Of a stretch of DNA of 64,000 nucleotides, positions 7,138 to 48,968 are shown piece after piece. Within the stretch, counting starts at the first letter, position 1, and the number at the start of each line of letters is the position of its first letter. This DNA is from Tritonibacter multivorans (GTDB lineage Bacteria > Pseudomonadota > Alphaproteobacteria > Rhodobacterales > Rhodobacteraceae). Below the pieces are notes generated by a model. That model had not been told where the DNA came from. It saw only the letters and a program-made list of their open reading frames with translations, and did no database searches. The stretch lies in the NCBI RefSeq assembly GCF_001458415.1, contig NZ_CYSD01000031.1, forward strand, positions 62,001 to 126,000, written 5' to 3'. The position numbers and the translations under genes were made by a program.

Positions 7138-7160
7138 AAAATTCCATAAGGTTATGATTG

Positions 7161-8045
7161 ATGCCAGATTTGAACAATCTGCCCGCGTTGCTTTGGCGTC
7201 TTTTGCCCGAGGTCAGAGCAACCGGAAATTTGACCCAAGTTGCCGCGCGGATTGGCGTGTCGCAGCCCGCGATCAGTAAAACGCTGGCCAAATGTGAAAC
7301 TCAGCTGGGCGTCGATCTGGTCCGCCGTGACCAGCGGCCAGTAAAACTGACCCAGGAAGGCGAGGTGCTGGCCGATTACGCGCAACAGCGGCTGGGGATG
7401 GAAGCCTTGCTGGAACGGCGCTTAAAGGTCATTCGCCAGCAGGGGGCCGGTCTGGTGCGCATCGCGTCTTTCGGGGCCTCGTCTTCGACACGTATCCTGC
7501 CACCCGTTCTGAAACACCTGCGCGCGCGGTTTCCGCAGGTGGACATTGAGTTGGTGGAACTGACAGACCAAGAAGCCAGACGCGCGCTGAAGGACGGGCT
7601 GGTCGATTTCGCAACCCTTGCCGGATCCGGGGACCTTGATTTTGACTATGTGCCCCTGGCCGAGGACCGCTTGGTCTGTCTGCTGCCAGAGGGCCACCGG
7701 CTGGCCGGGAAAGGCCCGGTTTCGCCACAGGATCTGATGGCGGAAGACTTCATCATGACCAAGGGCGGTAGTGAACCTTTGGTCCGGGATTGGTTTCGAC
7801 AGTCAGGCGGAGAACCCAATGTGCGCCACACTGCGCTTCAGCTGACTTCGATCCTCGCTTTGGTGCGAGCCGGCTTTGGGGTCTCAGTGATTGCGGAAAT
7901 GGCGGTGCCCGAAAGTCACCCCGAGGTCCAGGTTGCCCAGTTGGCTCCGCTCAAACAACGCGAGATCTTTTTGTGCCGCCGTGACGGCAGCTTTGCGTCC
8001 CATGCGGCGGCAAGCGTCTGGGACGCCCTGTCGCACATCCACTAG
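7161..8045 (+). CDS. LysR-family transcriptional regulator
   Basis: A 294-residue protein with an N-terminal winged helix-turn-helix (G-N-L-T-Q-V-A-A-R-I-G-V-S-Q-P-A-I-S-K, about residues 20-40) and a type 2 periplasmic-binding-like effector domain from about residue 90. It is divergent from the aminotransferase/AEC operon and probably regulates it, the usual LysR arrangement. The ATG at 7161 is used; a TTG one codon upstream (7158) is possible. It ends 112 bases before the CoA-binding protein gene and could also control that unit. Confidence 0.92.
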   Translation: MPDLNNLPALLWRLLPEVRATGNLTQVAARIGVSQPAISKTLAKCETQLGVDLVRRDQRPVKLTQEGEVLADYAQQRLGMEALLERRLKVIRQQGAGLVRIASFGASSSTRILPPVLKHLRARFPQVDIELVELTDQEARRALKDGLVDFATLAGSGDLDFDYVPLAEDRLVCLLPEGHRLAGKGPVSPQDLMAEDFIMTKGGSEPLVRDWFRQSGGEPNVRHTALQLTSILALVRAGFGVSVIAEMAVPESHPEVQVAQLAPLKQREIFLCRRDGSFASHAAASVWDALSHIH

Positions 8046-8157
8046 GTAGAACTACGGACAGGGGTTGGATTTCCGTTGACACAAACGCCCTGCCCAAAGG
8101 ACGCTCTGGAGACAAGCGGGTCGATCCACAGCCCGCAGCCACACGGAGGCGGGCCGC

Positions 8158-8613
8158 ATGTCTGAACTGGATATCACGAGTCAGCTTGACGATGTCCCTG
8201 GCTTCATTGCGGATATTCTTGGTTCAGTGAAGACCATTGCCATGGTTGGCGCTAGCGCGGACAGCCGCAAACCCAGCTATCAGGTCCTGCGGGTTCTGCT
8301 GGATGCAGGCTATGATGTGATCCCAGTCAATCCGCGCCCCGGCCTGACCGAGATCTGCGGCCAAAAGGTCTATGCAACGCTGTTATCTATCGACCGCCCG
8401 GTCGATATGGTCGACGTGTTTCGCCCGTCCGCTGACCTGTATGGCGTGGCTGAGGAGGCCATTGCCATCGGTGCAAAGGTTCTGTGGGCCCAAATTGGGG
8501 TGACAGATGAACGCGCCGCCAAACACGCCCGGGCCGCAGGGCTGAAGGTTGTTATGGACCGCTGTCCGAAAATTGAACTGAGGCTGCTGCAAGAGGGCAG
8601 TTCGCCGACATAG
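8158..8613 (+). CDS. CoA-binding domain protein (succinyl-CoA synthetase alpha-like Rossmann fold)
   Basis: A 151-residue single-domain protein with the V-G-A-S-A-D-S-R-K-P-S-Y-Q-V nucleotide/CoA-binding loop near residue 31, V-I-P-V-N-P-R near 58, and a conserved late Cys in M-D-R-C-P-K. The family (CoA_binding_2) is widespread and binds CoA; its exact role is unknown. It is followed 43 bases later by the enoyl-CoA hydratase homologue and heads a same-strand run of CoA-related genes ending at 11954. Confidence 0.85.
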   Translation: MSELDITSQLDDVPGFIADILGSVKTIAMVGASADSRKPSYQVLRVLLDAGYDVIPVNPRPGLTEICGQKVYATLLSIDRPVDMVDVFRPSADLYGVAEEAIAIGAKVLWAQIGVTDERAAKHARAAGLKVVMDRCPKIELRLLQEGSSPT

Positions 8614-8656
8614 GAGGTCGGCACACGCGAGGGAAACGGCCAGGGGAGGAGTTGCC

Positions 8657-9463
8657 GTGAAAGACCAAGAAAACGCACCCGTTCTATTGGACATCGACGA
8701 CGGGGTTGCGACCGTCACGCTCAATCGGCCGCAATCGATCAATGCCCTGTCCGAGGACATGCTTGCTGCGCTGCAATCCGTTTGGGATCAACTGGCAGAG
8801 GACAGAGCCGTGAAGGCCGTGGTTCTGCGCAGTGCAGGGGATCATTTCTGTGCGGGGCATAATCTCAAGGAGATGACGGCGCGGCGGACAGACGCGGACG
8901 GTGGGCAAGCCTATTTCAACGCGCTTTTTGCAACCTGTTCCAAGATGATGATGTCGATTGTGAATTTACCGCAACCCGTCATCGCGGAGGTAAAGGGGAT
9001 TGCAACAGCGGCTGGCTGCCAGCTGGTTGCGACCTGTGATCTGGCGGTGGCGTCCGACGATGCGCGGTTTGCCACATCCGGGGTGAACATCGGCCTGTTC
9101 TGTTCCACACCCATGGTGGCGCTTAGTCGGAACCTGTCGCGCAAACACGCAATGGAGCTGCTGCTGACGGGCGACTTCCTGCCCGCGAACCGCGCGGCGG
9201 AAATGGGGTTGGTCAATCGCGTTGTAGCGGGCACCGAGCTCCAATCCACAGCGCAGAACCTGGCCCGTGCCATCGCAAAAAAGTCTGCGGCAGCCGTCAA
9301 AATCGGCAAACGTGCGTTCTACGAGCAAGCGGAAATGGGGCTTGTTGATGCTTACGCATTTGCCGGGCGCACCATGGCAGAAAACATGATGACCCGCGAT
9401 GCGGAGGCAGGCATTGGCGCTTTTGTCACCAAACAGCCGTTGCCGGAATGGGAAGGGGAGTAG
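8657..9463 (+). CDS. Enoyl-CoA hydratase/isomerase homologue (ECHDC3-like)
   Basis: A 268-residue crotonase-fold protein starting at GTG 8657 behind a clear AGGGGAGGA site at 8642-8650. The CoA-binding and oxyanion-hole segments are present (F-C-A-G-H-N-L-K-E-M and A-A-G-C-Q-L-V-A). In the second catalytic region the sequence is N-I-G-L-F-C-S-T-P, the pattern of the ECHDC3 subgroup, in place of the usual Glu-containing loop, so classical hydratase activity is doubtful. It probably acts on the product of the acyl-CoA ligase that follows 6 bases later. Confidence 0.88.
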   Translation: MKDQENAPVLLDIDDGVATVTLNRPQSINALSEDMLAALQSVWDQLAEDRAVKAVVLRSAGDHFCAGHNLKEMTARRTDADGGQAYFNALFATCSKMMMSIVNLPQPVIAEVKGIATAAGCQLVATCDLAVASDDARFATSGVNIGLFCSTPMVALSRNLSRKHAMELLLTGDFLPANRAAEMGLVNRVVAGTELQSTAQNLARAIAKKSAAAVKIGKRAFYEQAEMGLVDAYAFAGRTMAENMMTRDAEAGIGAFVTKQPLPEWEGE

Positions 9464-9469
9464 GACCGC

Positions 9470-11116
9470 ATGTCGATTTATGATGGGCCAGAGCTCGCCC
9501 GAAACGCAGCCAACCATGTCGCATTGTCACCGGTGTCGATCTTAACACGCACAGCCCGCGTTTACCCTGAACGCCCCGCTGTGATCTATGGCGACCTGCG
9601 GCGCACCTGGGCAGAGGTCGCGACCCGCTGCAGCCAGCTTGCCTCTGCTTTGTCACGGCGTGGCATTGGGCGCGGGGACACGGTTGCGCTGCTCGCCCCC
9701 AATGTGCCCGAAGCCCTGGAATGCGCGCTGGCGGTGCCGATGACGGGTGCGGTGATCAATGCCAACAACACCCGGCTTGATGCAAATACGATCGCCTACA
9801 TTCTGGACCATGGCGAAGCCAAAGTTCTGCTGGTCGACACGGAATTTTCAGCCCTTGCCCAGGCCGCAGTGGCAGAGCTTGCATCCCCGCCACTGATTAT
9901 TGACATCTGCGACCCTGCGGCACCGGGAGACCGCATTGGAGAAATGGACTATGAGGCCTTCTTGGCAACCGGTGACCCGGCGTTTGTGCCACGCCCGCCA
10001 TCGGACGAATGGGATGCTTTGGCGCTGAACTACACCTCTGGCACCACGGGGCGGCCCAAGGGCGTGGTCTATTCCCATCGCGGCGCCTACCTCAATGCGG
10101 TCAACAATACGATCACATGGGCGATGCCGCATTTTCCGGTCTACCTGTGGACCGTGCCAATGTTTCATTGCAACGGCTGGTGTTTCCCTTGGACCATTAC
10201 ATTGCTGGCAGGCACGCATGTGTTTATGCGCGCGCCCCGTGCGGGCCCTGTTTTTGATGCTATTGCCGATCATGGCGTGACTCATCTGGGCGGTGCGCCG
10301 ATCATTATGTCGCTGATTGCCGATGCGCCGCCAGAGGTCATCCGCAGCTTTGACCACACGGTCGAGATGATGACAGCGGCCTCGCCCCCGCCAGCATCCG
10401 TTATTGCAGCTATTGAGGCCCTCGGCTTCAATATCACCCATGTTTACGGCCTGACCGAAGTCTATGGCCCGGCTGTGGTCTGCGCGTGGAAACCGGAATG
10501 GGACGCGCTGCCCGCCGCTGACAAAGCCCGCAAGAAAGCCCGTCAAGGGGTGGGCTGCGCCCTGGAAGAAGAGGTCTGCGTCGTTGATGCTGAAACAGCT
10601 GCGCCGGTGCCATGGGATGGTCAAACCCAGGGCGAGATCGTCTTTCGCGGCAATATCTGCATGAAAGGCTATCTCAAAGCGCCAGCGCCCACGGCAGAGG
10701 CCTTCAAAGATGGGTGGTTCTGGTCGGGCGACATCGCGGTGCAGCATCCGGATGGCTATGTGGAGATCCGCGACCGGGCCAAGGACATTATCATTTCGGG
10801 CGGGGAAAACATTTCGTCTATCGAGGTGGAAAATGCGATCAACAATCATCCAGCCGTGGCCTTTGTCGCCGTTGTGGCGCGCCCGGACGACAAATGGGGC
10901 GAGGTGCCCTGCGCCTTTGTCGAAACGAAACCGGGCCATTCGATCACGAACGACGAACTCATGTCCCATGCGCGCAAAGGTCTGGCCGGGTTCCAACGCC
11001 CCAAGATGGTTGTGCAGGGTGTTCTGCCAAAAAACGCAACCGGCAAAATCCTGAAACACCAGTTACGCGACATTGCAAAAGCCGACGCTCCGACGTTGGA
11101 ACAAGAAGGAGAGTGA
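9470..11116 (+). CDS. Acyl-CoA ligase (AMP-forming), DmdB-like
   Basis: A 548-residue ANL-superfamily ligase that activates a carboxylic acid to its CoA thioester. Core motifs are visible: Y-T-S-G-T-T-G-R-P-K-G (phosphate loop, about residue 186), Y-G-L-T-E-V-Y-G-P (about 326), W-S-G-D-I-A (about 422), R-D-R-A-K-D-I-I-I-S-G-G-E-N-I-S-S, and the C-terminal catalytic Lys in N-A-T-G-K-I-L-K. Its overall look resembles medium-chain/methylmercaptopropionate-CoA ligases of roseobacters, but substrate assignment by eye is weak. It is co-oriented and nearly contiguous with the enoyl-CoA hydratase homologue and the FAH hydrolase. Confidence 0.9.
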   Translation: MSIYDGPELARNAANHVALSPVSILTRTARVYPERPAVIYGDLRRTWAEVATRCSQLASALSRRGIGRGDTVALLAPNVPEALECALAVPMTGAVINANNTRLDANTIAYILDHGEAKVLLVDTEFSALAQAAVAELASPPLIIDICDPAAPGDRIGEMDYEAFLATGDPAFVPRPPSDEWDALALNYTSGTTGRPKGVVYSHRGAYLNAVNNTITWAMPHFPVYLWTVPMFHCNGWCFPWTITLLAGTHVFMRAPRAGPVFDAIADHGVTHLGGAPIIMSLIADAPPEVIRSFDHTVEMMTAASPPPASVIAAIEALGFNITHVYGLTEVYGPAVVCAWKPEWDALPAADKARKKARQGVGCALEEEVCVVDAETAAPVPWDGQTQGEIVFRGNICMKGYLKAPAPTAEAFKDGWFWSGDIAVQHPDGYVEIRDRAKDIIISGGENISSIEVENAINNHPAVAFVAVVARPDDKWGEVPCAFVETKPGHSITNDELMSHARKGLAGFQRPKMVVQGVLPKNATGKILKHQLRDIAKADAPTLEQEGE

Positions 11117-11117
11117 T

Positions 11118-11954
11118 GTGCAGATCTGCCATCTCAGACAGGGCGCAACGATCATTCCGGCCATCCGCGACGGAGATAACCACCGGGATGCGCGCGCCCT
11201 GACCCCGGCTTTTGATGCCGCATTTTTTGCTGCCGGTGGTCTCGCGCAGCTGCGGGCCGCGGATGTGTCGTCCCTGCCTGCGGTTGACAGGTTCGACAGC
11301 TTTGGGCCTTGCGTCTTGCGCCCTTCGAAAATTGTCTGTGTCGGGTTGAACTACCACGATCATGCAAAAGAAGCCGGGATGGAGCCCCCCGCTGAACCGG
11401 TGATTTTCTTCAAGTCGCCATCAGCGCTGTCGGGGCCCAACGACCCGATCCTGCTGCCGCCGGGCTGTGACATGCTGGATTGGGAGGTCGAGCTGGCCTT
11501 TGTTATCGGGCACCGTGCCAAACGGGTGAGCCAAGCTGAGGCGCTGGCCCATGTGGCGGGGTTTGCGATTATGAACGACGTCTCGGACCGCAATGCACAG
11601 ATGATGCGGGGCGGCCAATGGGCGAAGGGGAAAAGTTATGACAGCTTCGCGCCGCTGGGGCCCTATCTGGATCTGGATGTTGCGGATCCGCATGCGTTGT
11701 CTCTGACCCTCGCGGTGAACGGCCAGCAAATGCAAAATGGCTCAACCTCGGACCTGATCTTTGACCTGCCCACGGTGATTGAACATATATCTGAATTCAT
11801 GACGCTGGAGCCCGGCGACATTATAACAACGGGCACCCCGGCCGGGGTTGGCTATGGTATGACCCCCAAACAGTTCCTGAAAGCCGGCGACAGAGTGGAA
11901 ACCGCAATCACCGGACTGGGCACGCAGTCGCAGGAGGTGGTGCCTGACGACTGA
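11118..11954 (+). CDS. Fumarylacetoacetate hydrolase (FAH) family protein
   Basis: A 278-residue FAH-fold protein. The metal site is visible as W-E-V-E-L-A (Glu-x-Glu) and N-D-V-S-D-R, followed by K-G-K-S-Y-D-S-F-A-P-L-G-P and T-G-T-P-A-G-V-G-Y-G near the C-terminus. Members hydrolyse or decarboxylate diketo or oxo acids. The start is GTG 11118, two bases after the acyl-CoA ligase stop and six bases behind AAGGAG; a longer ATG-initiated frame would lie inside the ligase gene. It ends next to the convergent ammonia-lyase homologue. Confidence 0.9.
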   Translation: MQICHLRQGATIIPAIRDGDNHRDARALTPAFDAAFFAAGGLAQLRAADVSSLPAVDRFDSFGPCVLRPSKIVCVGLNYHDHAKEAGMEPPAEPVIFFKSPSALSGPNDPILLPPGCDMLDWEVELAFVIGHRAKRVSQAEALAHVAGFAIMNDVSDRNAQMMRGGQWAKGKSYDSFAPLGPYLDLDVADPHALSLTLAVNGQQMQNGSTSDLIFDLPTVIEHISEFMTLEPGDIITTGTPAGVGYGMTPKQFLKAGDRVETAITGLGTQSQEVVPDD

Positions 11955-13454
11955 TCACGCAAGTTCAAAGGGCGGCTTCTGGCCTGAGATTTCATCGAAC
12001 ATACGCTCAATATCAGCGTTCAGCGGGCGGTCGTCCTTGTAGATCGGAACGGCGGCGCGAAGCATGCGATGAAGCTGTTGCAGGCGGCTGCCGCGTTGCA
12101 GATCTTCTGTGATCAGATCCTGTGCTTGCGCGCCACACAACAGTTCGATCGACAGGATTAGCCCGACGTTTCGCACAACGCGCAGGGCTTTTTCGGCGGC
12201 CGGCGTGGCGTGGGTCAGAATGTCCTCCTGCAGGCCCGATGTGATGCCGTTCCCCAAGGAGGCAGGGGTGCCCAACATACGGTTTTCATTGACCAAAGAG
12301 GTCGCGGTATACTGCGCAATCATAAAACCGGACCCGGTGCCTGCCTCGGTTGTCAGAAATGCTGGCAGATCGCTGACCAGCGGATTCACCAAACGGTCCA
12401 CGCGGCGTTCCGAAATCGCGCCCAACTGTGCTGCGACGATGGAAATCCGGTCGGCTGCAAACGCCACTGCCGCGCCAACCGCATTGGCTTGGCTGAACAC
12501 CTTTGGCTCTGACGGGGTGCCGCCGACGGTTGGGTTGTCAGACACGCCACAAAGTTCGGTGGCCAGCACATCGTGGATCTGTGAAAGTTCGTCACGGATG
12601 GCGCCATGGACCTGCGGGATGGCACGCAGACTGAGGGGGTCTTGCGTGCTGCGCTTAGCCTCGGGGGCGCGTGCAACGCCGTCGAGCCAGCCAAGGAGAT
12701 TTTCGGTCGTTACCTGAACCCCGGCAGAGCGGCGCAGCATTACCGTACTGCCGGTGAAAGTCTCGCTCTGGCGGGCCAGAACACTGTAGCTCAGCGCCGA
12801 GGCCGCATCTGCCCAATTCGCAAGCTCACTGATCCGGGCATGTGCCAAGATCGCAAGACCGGTCGCGCAAGGGGTGCCGTTTACGAGGCTCAGCCCTTCT
12901 TTTGCCTGCAAAACACGCGGGGTGCGGCCGATCTTGGTGAGGGCTTCGTTGGCCGAGATGAGTTTGCCATCGAGCGTTGCCTGTCCGGCTCCGACCACCA
13001 GCAAACCGATGGAAGCGGTCTGGGTCAGGTATCCAACAGACCCGCGCGAGGGCACAACCGGCGTGATCCCCGCATTCAGCAGCAAAAGCAGCACTTCAAC
13101 GCAATCCCAGGAAAGCCCGGATTTCCCGAGGGCATAATTGTTGATCTGCGTCGCCATTATGGCGCGCACGGCTTCAATCTCCAGCGGCTCTCCCATGCCG
13201 CAGGCATGGCTGAACAGAATGTTGTGAGACAGCGCAGACTGGTTTTCCGCGCTGATAACAATATCGCAGAGTGCCCCGACGCCGGTATTGATGCCATAGC
13301 CCCTTGCGCCGCTGTCGACAAAGGCCTCCACGATGTCGCGCGCCATTTTGATACGGGCAATCGCCTGATCGGACAGCGCCAGCTGCGCGCCCCTTGCAAC
13401 AGCGAGGATTTGTTGCGGCGTCAAAGGATCATCAATGAGAACCGTCTGGGTCAT
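11955..13454 (-). CDS. Histidine/phenylalanine ammonia-lyase family protein lacking the MIO tripeptide
   Basis: A 499-residue protein clearly in the HAL/PAL/TAL fold: Y-G-I-N-T-G-V-G, N-I-L-F-S-H-A-C-G, E-G-L-S-L-V-N-G-T, Q-D-P-L-S-L-R-A-I-P-Q-V-H-G, S-D-N-P-T-V and L-Q-E-D are all recognisable. At residues 138-143 it reads G-S-V-G-Y-L where active lyases have G-S-V-G-A-S-G-D-L, so the Ala-Ser-Gly that cyclises to the MIO electrophile is missing. The catalytic Tyr of the D-x-Y-S-L-R motif is Leu274. A normal lyase reaction is therefore unlikely; an aminomutase, hydratase or binding role is open. ATG 13454 gives the family start. It converges with the FAH/CoA-ligase unit. Confidence 0.85.
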   Translation of the reverse strand: MTQTVLIDDPLTPQQILAVARGAQLALSDQAIARIKMARDIVEAFVDSGARGYGINTGVGALCDIVISAENQSALSHNILFSHACGMGEPLEIEAVRAIMATQINNYALGKSGLSWDCVEVLLLLLNAGITPVVPSRGSVGYLTQTASIGLLVVGAGQATLDGKLISANEALTKIGRTPRVLQAKEGLSLVNGTPCATGLAILAHARISELANWADAASALSYSVLARQSETFTGSTVMLRRSAGVQVTTENLLGWLDGVARAPEAKRSTQDPLSLRAIPQVHGAIRDELSQIHDVLATELCGVSDNPTVGGTPSEPKVFSQANAVGAAVAFAADRISIVAAQLGAISERRVDRLVNPLVSDLPAFLTTEAGTGSGFMIAQYTATSLVNENRMLGTPASLGNGITSGLQEDILTHATPAAEKALRVVRNVGLILSIELLCGAQAQDLITEDLQRGSRLQQLHRMLRAAVPIYKDDRPLNADIERMFDEISGQKPPFELA

Positions 13455-13558: not shown

Positions 13559-13578
13559 TTTTATGTATGCACATAAAA
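13559..13578. promoter_or_regulatory. Inverted repeat TTTTATGT-ATGC-ACATAAAA upstream of the lyase homologue
   Basis: Two perfect 8-base arms are separated by four bases, 105 bases in front of the lyase homologue's ATG. On the minus strand a TTGACT hexamer (13585-13580) directly precedes the repeat, so a bound protein would cover the promoter spacer. The T-x-T-G-T/A-C-A-x-A layout resembles GntR-type operators. No GntR gene is in the window, so the regulator is unknown. Confidence 0.45.
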
Positions 13579-47960: not shown

Positions 47961-48968
47961 ATGACCATTTTTTCCAAACTCTGCACAACCGCTGCGGCGA
48001 CCCTTCTCGCCGGCGCTGCGTTTGCACAGGACCCCACCTTCTTCCGCATTGGCACCGGCGGTGCGGGCGGTACTTATTTTCCCATCGGCGGCACAATCGC
48101 CAATGGCATCTCTTCCCCGCCCGGCGCGCGGGCCTGCGATCAGGGCGGCCAATGTGGCGTCCCAGGCCTGATCGCAATCGCGCAGTCGACCACCGCATCC
48201 GTCTTTAACAACGCAGCCGTCGAAAACGGCGAGCTGGAAGCAGGCCTAGCTGCCGCCGACGTGACCCGTTCGATGTATCTGGGTGAAGGCAAGTTTGAAG
48301 GCAAACCGCACCCGAAACTGCGTGTGGTTGCAAACCTGTTCCCGGAAGATCTGCACCTGGTTCTGCCCAAAGGCTCATCAATTGGTGATCTCGGCGATCT
48401 GGCCGAAAAACGCGTTGGCATCGCGCAGGCGGGGTCGGGTACCCAAGTTGCCGTGCTGCAGATGCTCGAAGCCTGGGGCGTGACCAGGGACAACATGAGC
48501 GAAGCCGAGCTGAACAACAGCCAGTCAGCCGAACGGCTCGCTGATGGTCAGCTGGATGGCTATTTCTATGCGGCCGGTTGGCCGGTCTCTGCCATGGTGC
48601 AGCTGGCCTCTACCAAGGGTATGGAACTGCACAGCTTCTCAGACGAAGACATGGCCAAGATCAACGAAATTATCCCGGCCTACATCCCATCAATGATCCC
48701 CGGCGGTGTCTATGACGGCATTGACTACGACGTGAAGACCCCAGCGGTTTCGGCCCTGCTGAACGTGTCTTCCGACCTCTCGGAAGAGCTGGTCTATGGC
48801 ATCACCAAAGCCCTGTGGAACGACAACACCCGCAAGCTTCTGGACAATGGTCACGCCAAGGGCAAGCAGATCACGCTCGACACCGCATTGGATGGCATCC
48901 TGGCGCTTGGCGTGCCCCTGCATCCGGGCGCTGAGAAGTTCTATCGCGAGGTTGGTGCGCTCAAATAA
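47961..48968 (+). CDS. TAXI-family TRAP transporter substrate-binding protein
   Basis: A 335-residue periplasmic protein with a signal peptide (about residues 1-22, A-A-T-L-L-A-G-A-A-F-A) and the TAXI hallmark I-G-T-G-G-A-G-G-T-Y-F-P-I-G-G-T-I-A-N. Many members bind amino acids or dicarboxylates such as glutamate; the exact ligand is unknown. The adjacent D-amino-acid dehydrogenase suggests an amino acid. A strong hairpin separates it from the fused permease gene. Confidence 0.92.
   Translation: MTIFSKLCTTAAATLLAGAAFAQDPTFFRIGTGGAGGTYFPIGGTIANGISSPPGARACDQGGQCGVPGLIAIAQSTTASVFNNAAVENGELEAGLAAADVTRSMYLGEGKFEGKPHPKLRVVANLFPEDLHLVLPKGSSIGDLGDLAEKRVGIAQAGSGTQVAVLQMLEAWGVTRDNMSEAELNNSQSAERLADGQLDGYFYAAGWPVSAMVQLASTKGMELHSFSDEDMAKINEIIPAYIPSMIPGGVYDGIDYDVKTPAVSALLNVSSDLSEELVYGITKALWNDNTRKLLDNGHAKGKQITLDTALDGILALGVPLHPGAEKFYREVGALK

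Follow-up and report, generated by a model that had tools for sequence, protein, structure and literature searches.

The lyase gene occupies positions 11955–13454 on the minus strand of the window, the 64-kb stretch of Tritonibacter multivorans DNA that was analysed as a whole. Translation from 13454 to 11955 gives an intact frame of 499 amino acids with a terminal stop, and in a profile search this protein matches positions 1–465 of the 466-position PF00221 profile (E = 1.5e-136) with 456.2 bits against a gathering score of 27.3, which places it in the family. The protein is described here as a MIO-less relative of histidase and a predicted trimethylamine-lyase. A predicted HutC operator, TTATGTGCATACATAA, with the palindrome TTATGT-N4-ACATAA, lies at 13561–13576, 107 bp upstream of the ATG. 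On the opposite flank, a catabolic unit on the plus strand (7158–11954) encodes a LysR regulator, a CoA-binding protein, an enoyl-CoA hydratase, an acyl-CoA synthetase and a FAH-family hydrolase, and the lyase gene and this CoA-ligase/FAH unit converge tail to tail. Upstream, the minus strand between 13712 and 17847 carries a proteasome-type protease (PF00227) followed by transglutaminase-, alpha-E- and circularly permuted ATP-grasp-like open reading frames, a gene row that we take to resemble an Anbu-type cluster.

MIO enzymes carry the sequence GSVG-ASG-DL, and the lyase reads GSVG-YL at residues 138–143 (13026–13043, minus strand, located by alignment), codons 138–148 being GGG TCT GTT GGA TAC CTG ACC CAG ACC GCT TCC. 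The other PF00221 protein of the same genome is a canonical HutH with GSVGASGDL, encoded in a hut operon on another contig, and alignment with it leaves out exactly three residues at the MIO site, confirming the observation in the earlier note that GSVGYL replaces GSVGASGDL. The further claim that Ala-Ser-Gly is the deleted tripeptide holds as to the number of residues and is left with two readings as to their identity: the Asp of GASGD is also lost, and either Ala-Ser-Gly (with Asp changed to Tyr) or Ser-Gly-Asp (with Ala changed to Tyr) fits the sequence, which does not distinguish between them. The Tyr of the QDxYSxR motif, which in histidase is catalytic and MIO-forming, is Leu274 in the lyase (codon 12633–12635, minus strand), as had been noted earlier, and is Tyr in 16/16 MIO-type rows of the set used for the tree. 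Similarly, the alignment places Ala325 (codon 12480–12482, minus strand) where all 16 MIO-type tree rows have a Phe, a residue that presumably lines the MIO in histidase. Retained in the alignment are Tyr53, His83, Asn192, Gln271, Arg277 and Glu410; we take the first to correspond to the base of histidase and the others to its imidazole and carboxylate contacts. The lyase scores 422.3 bits on TIGR01225, below the equivalog cut-off of 539.15, and it displays neither the MIO triad nor the scores above curated cut-offs by which PAL, TAL and aminomutases are recognized. An AF2 model (pLDDT 88.7, pTM 0.92; weakest stretch, residues 402–409) predicts that the HAL fold is retained, in agreement with the earlier note. 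The nine best PDB matches of this model in Foldseek are histidases and a tyrosine ammonia-lyase (TMq 0.87–0.91), and ergothionase ranks 20th.

The missing residues recur in a conserved clade. A scan of genome_contigs yielded 515 confirmed stretches, from which the best 80 loci were kept, a sample rich in Paraburkholderia. These best 80 of 515 loci belong to alpha-, beta- and gammaproteobacteria, and the motif GS[V/A]GY[L/I], at the same length, is present in 80/80 of them; the motif is thus conserved far beyond chance, and the earlier question of whether GSVGYL homologues form a conserved clade can be answered in the affirmative for this sample. Conservation was read from an alignment of 85 MIO-less rows, comprising the lyase, 79 of the 80 genome_contigs loci (L047, left out, also bears a GYL-type motif) and five plasmid loci. 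The lyase deviates at 14 of the 175 columns that are at least 95% conserved in the clade; one of these deviations is Gln145, a position at which each of the other 84 rows has His. When the MIO loop and the Tyr column were left out of the tree, the 36 clade rows grouped on a single branch (SH-aLRT 100), and all 36 retain Tyr53, His83, Asn192, Gln271, Arg277 and Glu410; the MIO-neighbouring Tyr is replaced by Leu in 34/36 and the Phe by Ala in 33/36. His283, Glu349, Arg354, Gln381, Tyr382 and Lys422, invariant in the clade and considered as clade-specific residues, were rejected as such, being present in a MIO-type Cetobacterium protein too. Another branch (SH-aLRT 99) contains the Treponema denticola ergothionase and four more proteins, of which three have the same Lys. 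AU tests rejected none of the groupings tried: the main clade together with the ergothionase-like rows (p = 0.384), a single clade of all MIO-less rows (p = 0.097) and a single clade of the GYL rows alone (p = 0.297).

Related motifs were also seen in two plasmid-borne proteins. A GSLGYL-type MIO-less lyase on a Priestia megaterium plasmid (L087:4977–6515), near hutI, groups with the MIO-type Cetobacterium histidase (SH-aLRT 97); it possibly represents a separate loss of the MIO, and the AU tests do not reject a common MIO-less clade. On a Klebsiella pneumoniae plasmid (L136:5959–7491), a divergent GSVGYL-type lyase annotated as an aromatic amino acid ammonia-lyase has an ABC transporter on one side, hutD/hutC/hutF on the other and hutU in the vicinity. 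Within the family of the host, no close copy of the lyase was found in any other of the 394 genomes; the next matches are 34–41% identical, and all 29 that were fetched contain the ASG tripeptide. The lyase is present in 3/18 genomes of the genus. The gene is thus patchily held.

Eleven window neighbours of the lyase, from cytochrome c to alpha-E, were compared with the loci of its relatives. The FAH, CoA ligase, enoyl-CoA hydratase, CoA-binding protein, LysR and aminotransferase genes were matched at 0/96 loci (E 1e-15), and the sole neighbour with any match is the transglutaminase, at 25–26% identity in 3/96 loci; an earlier comparison over 118 loci found no window neighbour above 45% identity. 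The earlier note had suggested a tie to the CoA-ligase/FAH unit. With no match for its genes at any of the 96 loci, convergent orientation and a HutC-like operator at the lyase, this link was rejected.

The Pseudomonas HutC repressor is described, in the parts of PMC12977541 that concern it, as binding TGTA-N2-TACA and being released by urocanate. The canonical Pseudomonas box TGTATATACA, with one mismatch allowed, has no match in the 64-kb window, and the hut promoters of the family itself were therefore read. In 20 other genomes belonging to the genus or the family, the hutI promoters were read by eye, after the lyase promoter had been seen, and gave the core TTATGT-N4-ACATAA, which is exact in 10 of them and has one mismatch in nine and two in one. 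The window holds one match to this core, the exact one at 13561–13576, which is also the sole exact match in the 4.17-Mb genome, where base composition predicts 0.06. Two more places in the genome carry one mismatch; the expected number of places with no more than one is about 2.6. A matrix was trained on the best core matches in the 20 promoters (17 distinct), excluding the lyase site and the hut promoter of the same genome; an earlier pattern built partly from the lyase site itself was set aside as evidence. On this matrix the lyase site scores 27.9, within the training range of 26.1–39.0, and the runner-up within the window reaches 15.1; the best score among 20 random windows is 17.7. The genome's own hut promoter scores 22.1 and 15.3, under the training range. 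Lyase promoters of relatives score 21.0 and 19.3 in the two genus mates (L134 and L133) and 15.8 and 10.4 in two further loci (Leisingera L003 and L004), the best sites at L133, L134 and L003 lying directly upstream of the lyase or its transporter operon. A HutC protein is present in the genome (TIGR02018, 254.4 bits against a cut-off of 220) and shares 35–54% identity with the HutC proteins encoded close to the training promoters. As a sequence, the site at 13561–13576 is a strong candidate for a HutC operator. Elsewhere in the genome, a one-mismatch HutC-like site, TTATGTATGCACAAAA, with the N4 of the lyase site and a matrix score of 22.3, lies at 47961–47976 of contig C32 (L222; L224:5962), upstream of a DctP-DctQ-DctM TRAP transporter that is a candidate importer of the lyase substrate.

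The neighbourhoods of the relatives point in the same direction. Among 95 loci whose lyase is at least 44% identical to the 499-residue protein, HutC lies within 8 kb in 74, a hut enzyme is present in 29, and hutU lies within 10 kb in 23; among the best 80 of 515 genome_contigs loci, HutC or a hut enzyme is near the lyase in 74. Neither was in reach at 12/95 loci, including both genus mates. The lyase stands at the head of hutU-hutD-hutI-hutF-hutG in Caballeronia; in several Rhizobium its neighbours are hutF and a HutC-like gene, with hutI-hutH-hutU running divergently from it; and in Sinorhizobium it comes after hutC, hutF and a ProX/W/V system. Curated models confirmed the hutU, hutI, hutF, hutG and HutC labels of representatives, the curated match behind the hutD label being under its cut-off; the remaining labels denote similarity to curated representatives, nine regulators labelled HutC being 31–35% identical to them. 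An ABC system adjoins the lyase in 77/95 loci (67 of amino-acid type, PAAT, and 11 of glycine-betaine type, one locus having both). The glycine-betaine type is found beside the lyase in one genus mate (L133), and no betaine transporter adjoins the lyase in T. multivorans. The commoner PAAT neighbour (67/95) does not point to a betaine.

T. multivorans has a hut operon that encodes a canonical HutH and contains hutU. Within the class, 12/387 genomes have the lyase, and hutU is found in 12/12 of these versus 110/387 overall (P = 1.8e-7) or, by genus, in 7/7 lyase genera versus 72/264 (P = 9e-5), values that count the T. multivorans genome in and are uncorrected for kinship. Regions were fetched from nine of the 11 other class genomes with the lyase. 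A separate ASG histidase is present in 14/14 tested lyase genomes (the 12 class genomes and two genus mates). The evidence points to a link of the lyase with the histidine-utilisation regulon, not with the CoA-ligase/FAH unit.

What is seen directly is the loss of the MIO residues, the conservation of the clade, a HutC-like operator sequence and an association with hut genes across genomes, and from these we infer a substrate, a product and a mode of regulation: the lyase is probably (at a probability of roughly 0.6, judged from sequence) a MIO-free enzyme of the HutC regulon that eliminates trimethylamine from hercynine (histidine betaine) and produces urocanate that then enters the hut pathway. 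The HAL fold is known to need the MIO electrophile when it removes a primary amine; a trimethylammonium group, as ergothionase demonstrates, can leave without it. The clade appears to retain the residues that hold an imidazolyl-propionate and to have lost the surroundings of the amine, namely the MIO, the Tyr (to Leu) and the Phe (to Ala). With MIO-forming residues lost throughout a conserved clade and the fold predicted to be kept, the suggestion in the earlier note of another reaction is likely to be right. Hercynine (N-alpha-trimethyl-histidine) would be bound by His83, Glu410, Arg277, Asn192 and Gln271, the imidazole and carboxylate contacts of histidase, and Tyr53 would take its beta proton, all of these catalytic roles being assigned by analogy. 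Because it leaves from a quaternary ammonium, trimethylamine would then be expelled without a MIO electrophile. The resulting urocanate would be broken down by the usual hut enzymes, whose genes lie elsewhere in the genome, and would relieve HutC repression. Conversion of hercynine to urocanate and trimethylamine is the simplest reading, given the hut-type operator, a canonical urocanase elsewhere in the genome and, in several lineages, transporters of betaine type. Against this reading stand the greater frequency of PAAT neighbours, the lack of a betaine transporter next to the lyase in T. multivorans, the 12/95 loci with neither HutC nor a hut enzyme, the low matrix scores of the host's hut promoter and of the relatives' lyase promoters, the distance of the host HutC from those of the training set, and the 14 deviating columns. 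As for the fate of trimethylamine, the genome encodes a protein resembling TMAO demethylase (1053.9 bits, slightly below the cut-off of 1100); a search of it for GmaS found none over the cut-off, and one for TMA monooxygenase found no convincing candidate, a weak FMO match resembling another flavoprotein.

The lyase might instead be an ergothionase proper, whose substrate is ergothioneine or an S-substituted form of it (S-methyl, sulfonate) and whose products are trimethylamine and a thiourocanate. We give this a small chance. Ergothionase is a known MIO-free relative (described in parts of PMC13405746), and one clade member, on an Agrobacterium tumefaciens plasmid (L083:476–11494), stands in a cassette that favours such a role. 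The cassette includes a molybdopterin S/N-oxide reductase, an amidohydrolase, a betaine-type ABC transporter and an S-methyl-thiourocanate hydratase, the last scoring 976.5 bits against a cut-off of 880. The clade member found there has Leu in place of Tyr382. The cassette may be the ergothioneine sulfonate pathway that a section of PMC13405746 cites for A. radiobacter, and because the L083 member accompanies an S-methyl-thiourocanate hydratase, the clade is not limited to plain hercynine. In T. multivorans, however, no thiourocanate hydratase was found, and the only hutU-family gene is canonical (942 bits as hutU and 682.5 bits against the thiourocanate-hydratase cut-off of 930). The T. denticola ergothionase, moreover, has a different lesion, the Lys of IQKT where the lyase has Tyr382, and a separate branch in the tree, although the AU test does not reject joining the two branches. 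Two genomes (G440 and G770) carry both types of protein. Their ergothionase-like gene, whose product reads GSIGCADIGL and has the T. denticola structure 6s7j as its best match among three queries, has within 8 kb a thiourocanate hydratase (cut-off 930), which scores 1032.1 bits in the first genome and 1052.6 in the second, as well as homologues of the amidohydrolase and Zn-hydrolase in the Agrobacterium cassette. In the same two genomes, by contrast, the GYL-type lyase has a canonical hutU (967.6 and 973.2 bits) at a distance of about 6 and 10 kb. Ergothionase-like proteins were also seen elsewhere: Leisingera sp. ANG-Vp has a second degenerate lyase (L004:904–2436; GSIGAADL, QDPLSFR) of the ergothionase-like branch about 5.5 kb from its GYL-type gene, and MIO-less proteins of that branch occur on Sinorhizobium meliloti pSymA (L139, GSVGQADM) and a Rhizobium leguminosarum plasmid (L138, GSIGAADL), the latter scoring higher against 6s7j than the other single-protein queries.

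A somewhat smaller chance goes to another N-alpha-substituted histidine as substrate, such as mono- or dimethyl-histidine, or to MIO-free deamination of histidine by a second histidase of the hut regulon. Parts of PMC5343134 treat HutC-controlled extra copies as HutH paralogues, which would accord with a second histidase. The HutC-like operator, the hut context, the retained imidazole contacts and the amino-acid-type ABC system beside 67/95 members also favour it, but an ASG histidase is already present in 14/14 genomes examined, and smaller residues have taken the place of the MIO-pocket Tyr and Phe. Nor do we know of any chemistry by which the HAL fold removes a primary amine without MIO. 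That canonical HutH accompanies the lyase in all 14 genomes could, together with the lost MIO and the deviation of the lyase at 14/175 conserved columns, suggest a non-catalytic partner or regulator, acting for example in mixed tetramers with canonical HutH or by binding urocanate. Such a role is improbable: it would not obviously need the base, carboxylate and imidazole residues that are invariant in 36/36 rows, and transporter genes recur beside the lyase (77/95 loci). Adjacency in the window speaks for an enzyme that makes an acrylate for CoA activation by the neighbouring CoA-ligase/hydratase/FAH unit, a proposal that the convergent orientation, the lack of any match to these neighbours at the 96 loci and the HutC-like operator largely refute and that we consider highly improbable.

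If the lyase is a hercynine trimethylamine-lyase, its clade may represent a widespread, unrecognised bacterial route for histidine betaine, in which a MIO-free lyase feeds urocanate into the hut pathway under HutC and in which many genes labelled as 'second histidases' or 'histidine' ABC transporters in rhizobia, relatives of Burkholderia and marine Rhodobacteraceae encode lyases and importers for hercynine or a related betaine; we put this wider proposal at about even odds. The whole clade, annotated hutH, would then be misnamed, and genes now catalogued as surplus histidases may be part of a nutrient pathway that has escaped recognition and may give rise to trimethylamine. Bacteria from soils, plants and the sea would own a dedicated means of using histidine betaine, and the clade would be a second natural test of the histidase fold without its electrophile. 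Hercynine is described in parts of PMC7653990 as the precursor of ergothioneine in fungi and actinobacteria. MIO-free lyases of the HAL fold and extra HutH-like genes under HutC are already known from sections of PMC13405746 and PMC5343134. A MIO-free clade on another branch than the T. denticola ergothionase, combined with hut control and a canonical urocanase, was not found in searches of an open-access library, and neither were reports of a hercynine lyase.

Compared with HutH (PF00221, TIGR01225, EC 4.3.1.3), the lyase has in common the fold, Tyr53, His83, Asn192, Gln271, Arg277 and Glu410, the hut neighbours and the HutC-like operator; it differs in being without Ala-Ser-Gly, in having Leu274 for Tyr and Ala325 for Phe, and in scoring below the TIGR01225 cut-off. 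In S. meliloti (L008), the gene order is hutF, a ProX/ProW/ProV-type ABC system and a MIO-less lyase, which we take to be the orthologue of HutH2. The HutH2 of the hutXWV-hutH2 operon is reportedly called a putative histidase, and the transporter is said to serve histidine, proline and betaines. HutC-controlled extra HutH-like genes, termed HutH paralogues, and ABC transporters are known from a section of PMC5343134, which treats the transporters as serving histidine uptake and, within that section, does not mention MIO loss. Ergothionase is a trimethylamine lyase of the HAL fold without MIO, according to parts of PMC13405746, which also give the accession of a Burkholderia ergothionase (BAM63550). 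The ergothionase comparison is with the T. denticola enzyme (6s7j), whose motifs are SSIGEGDI, ALQDPLSFR and IQKT. Similar to the lyase, this enzyme is a MIO-free PF00221 protein with Leu at the Tyr position. Its MIO site is only one residue shorter than that of histidase, whereas the lyase is three shorter, and it has, in IQKT, a Lys where the lyase has Tyr382. This Lys is catalytically important in ergothionase. The T. denticola enzyme also keeps the Phe that is Ala in the lyase clade, and it is 27% identical to the lyase in the structural match and falls on a separate, supported branch, although a common clade is not rejected by the AU test.
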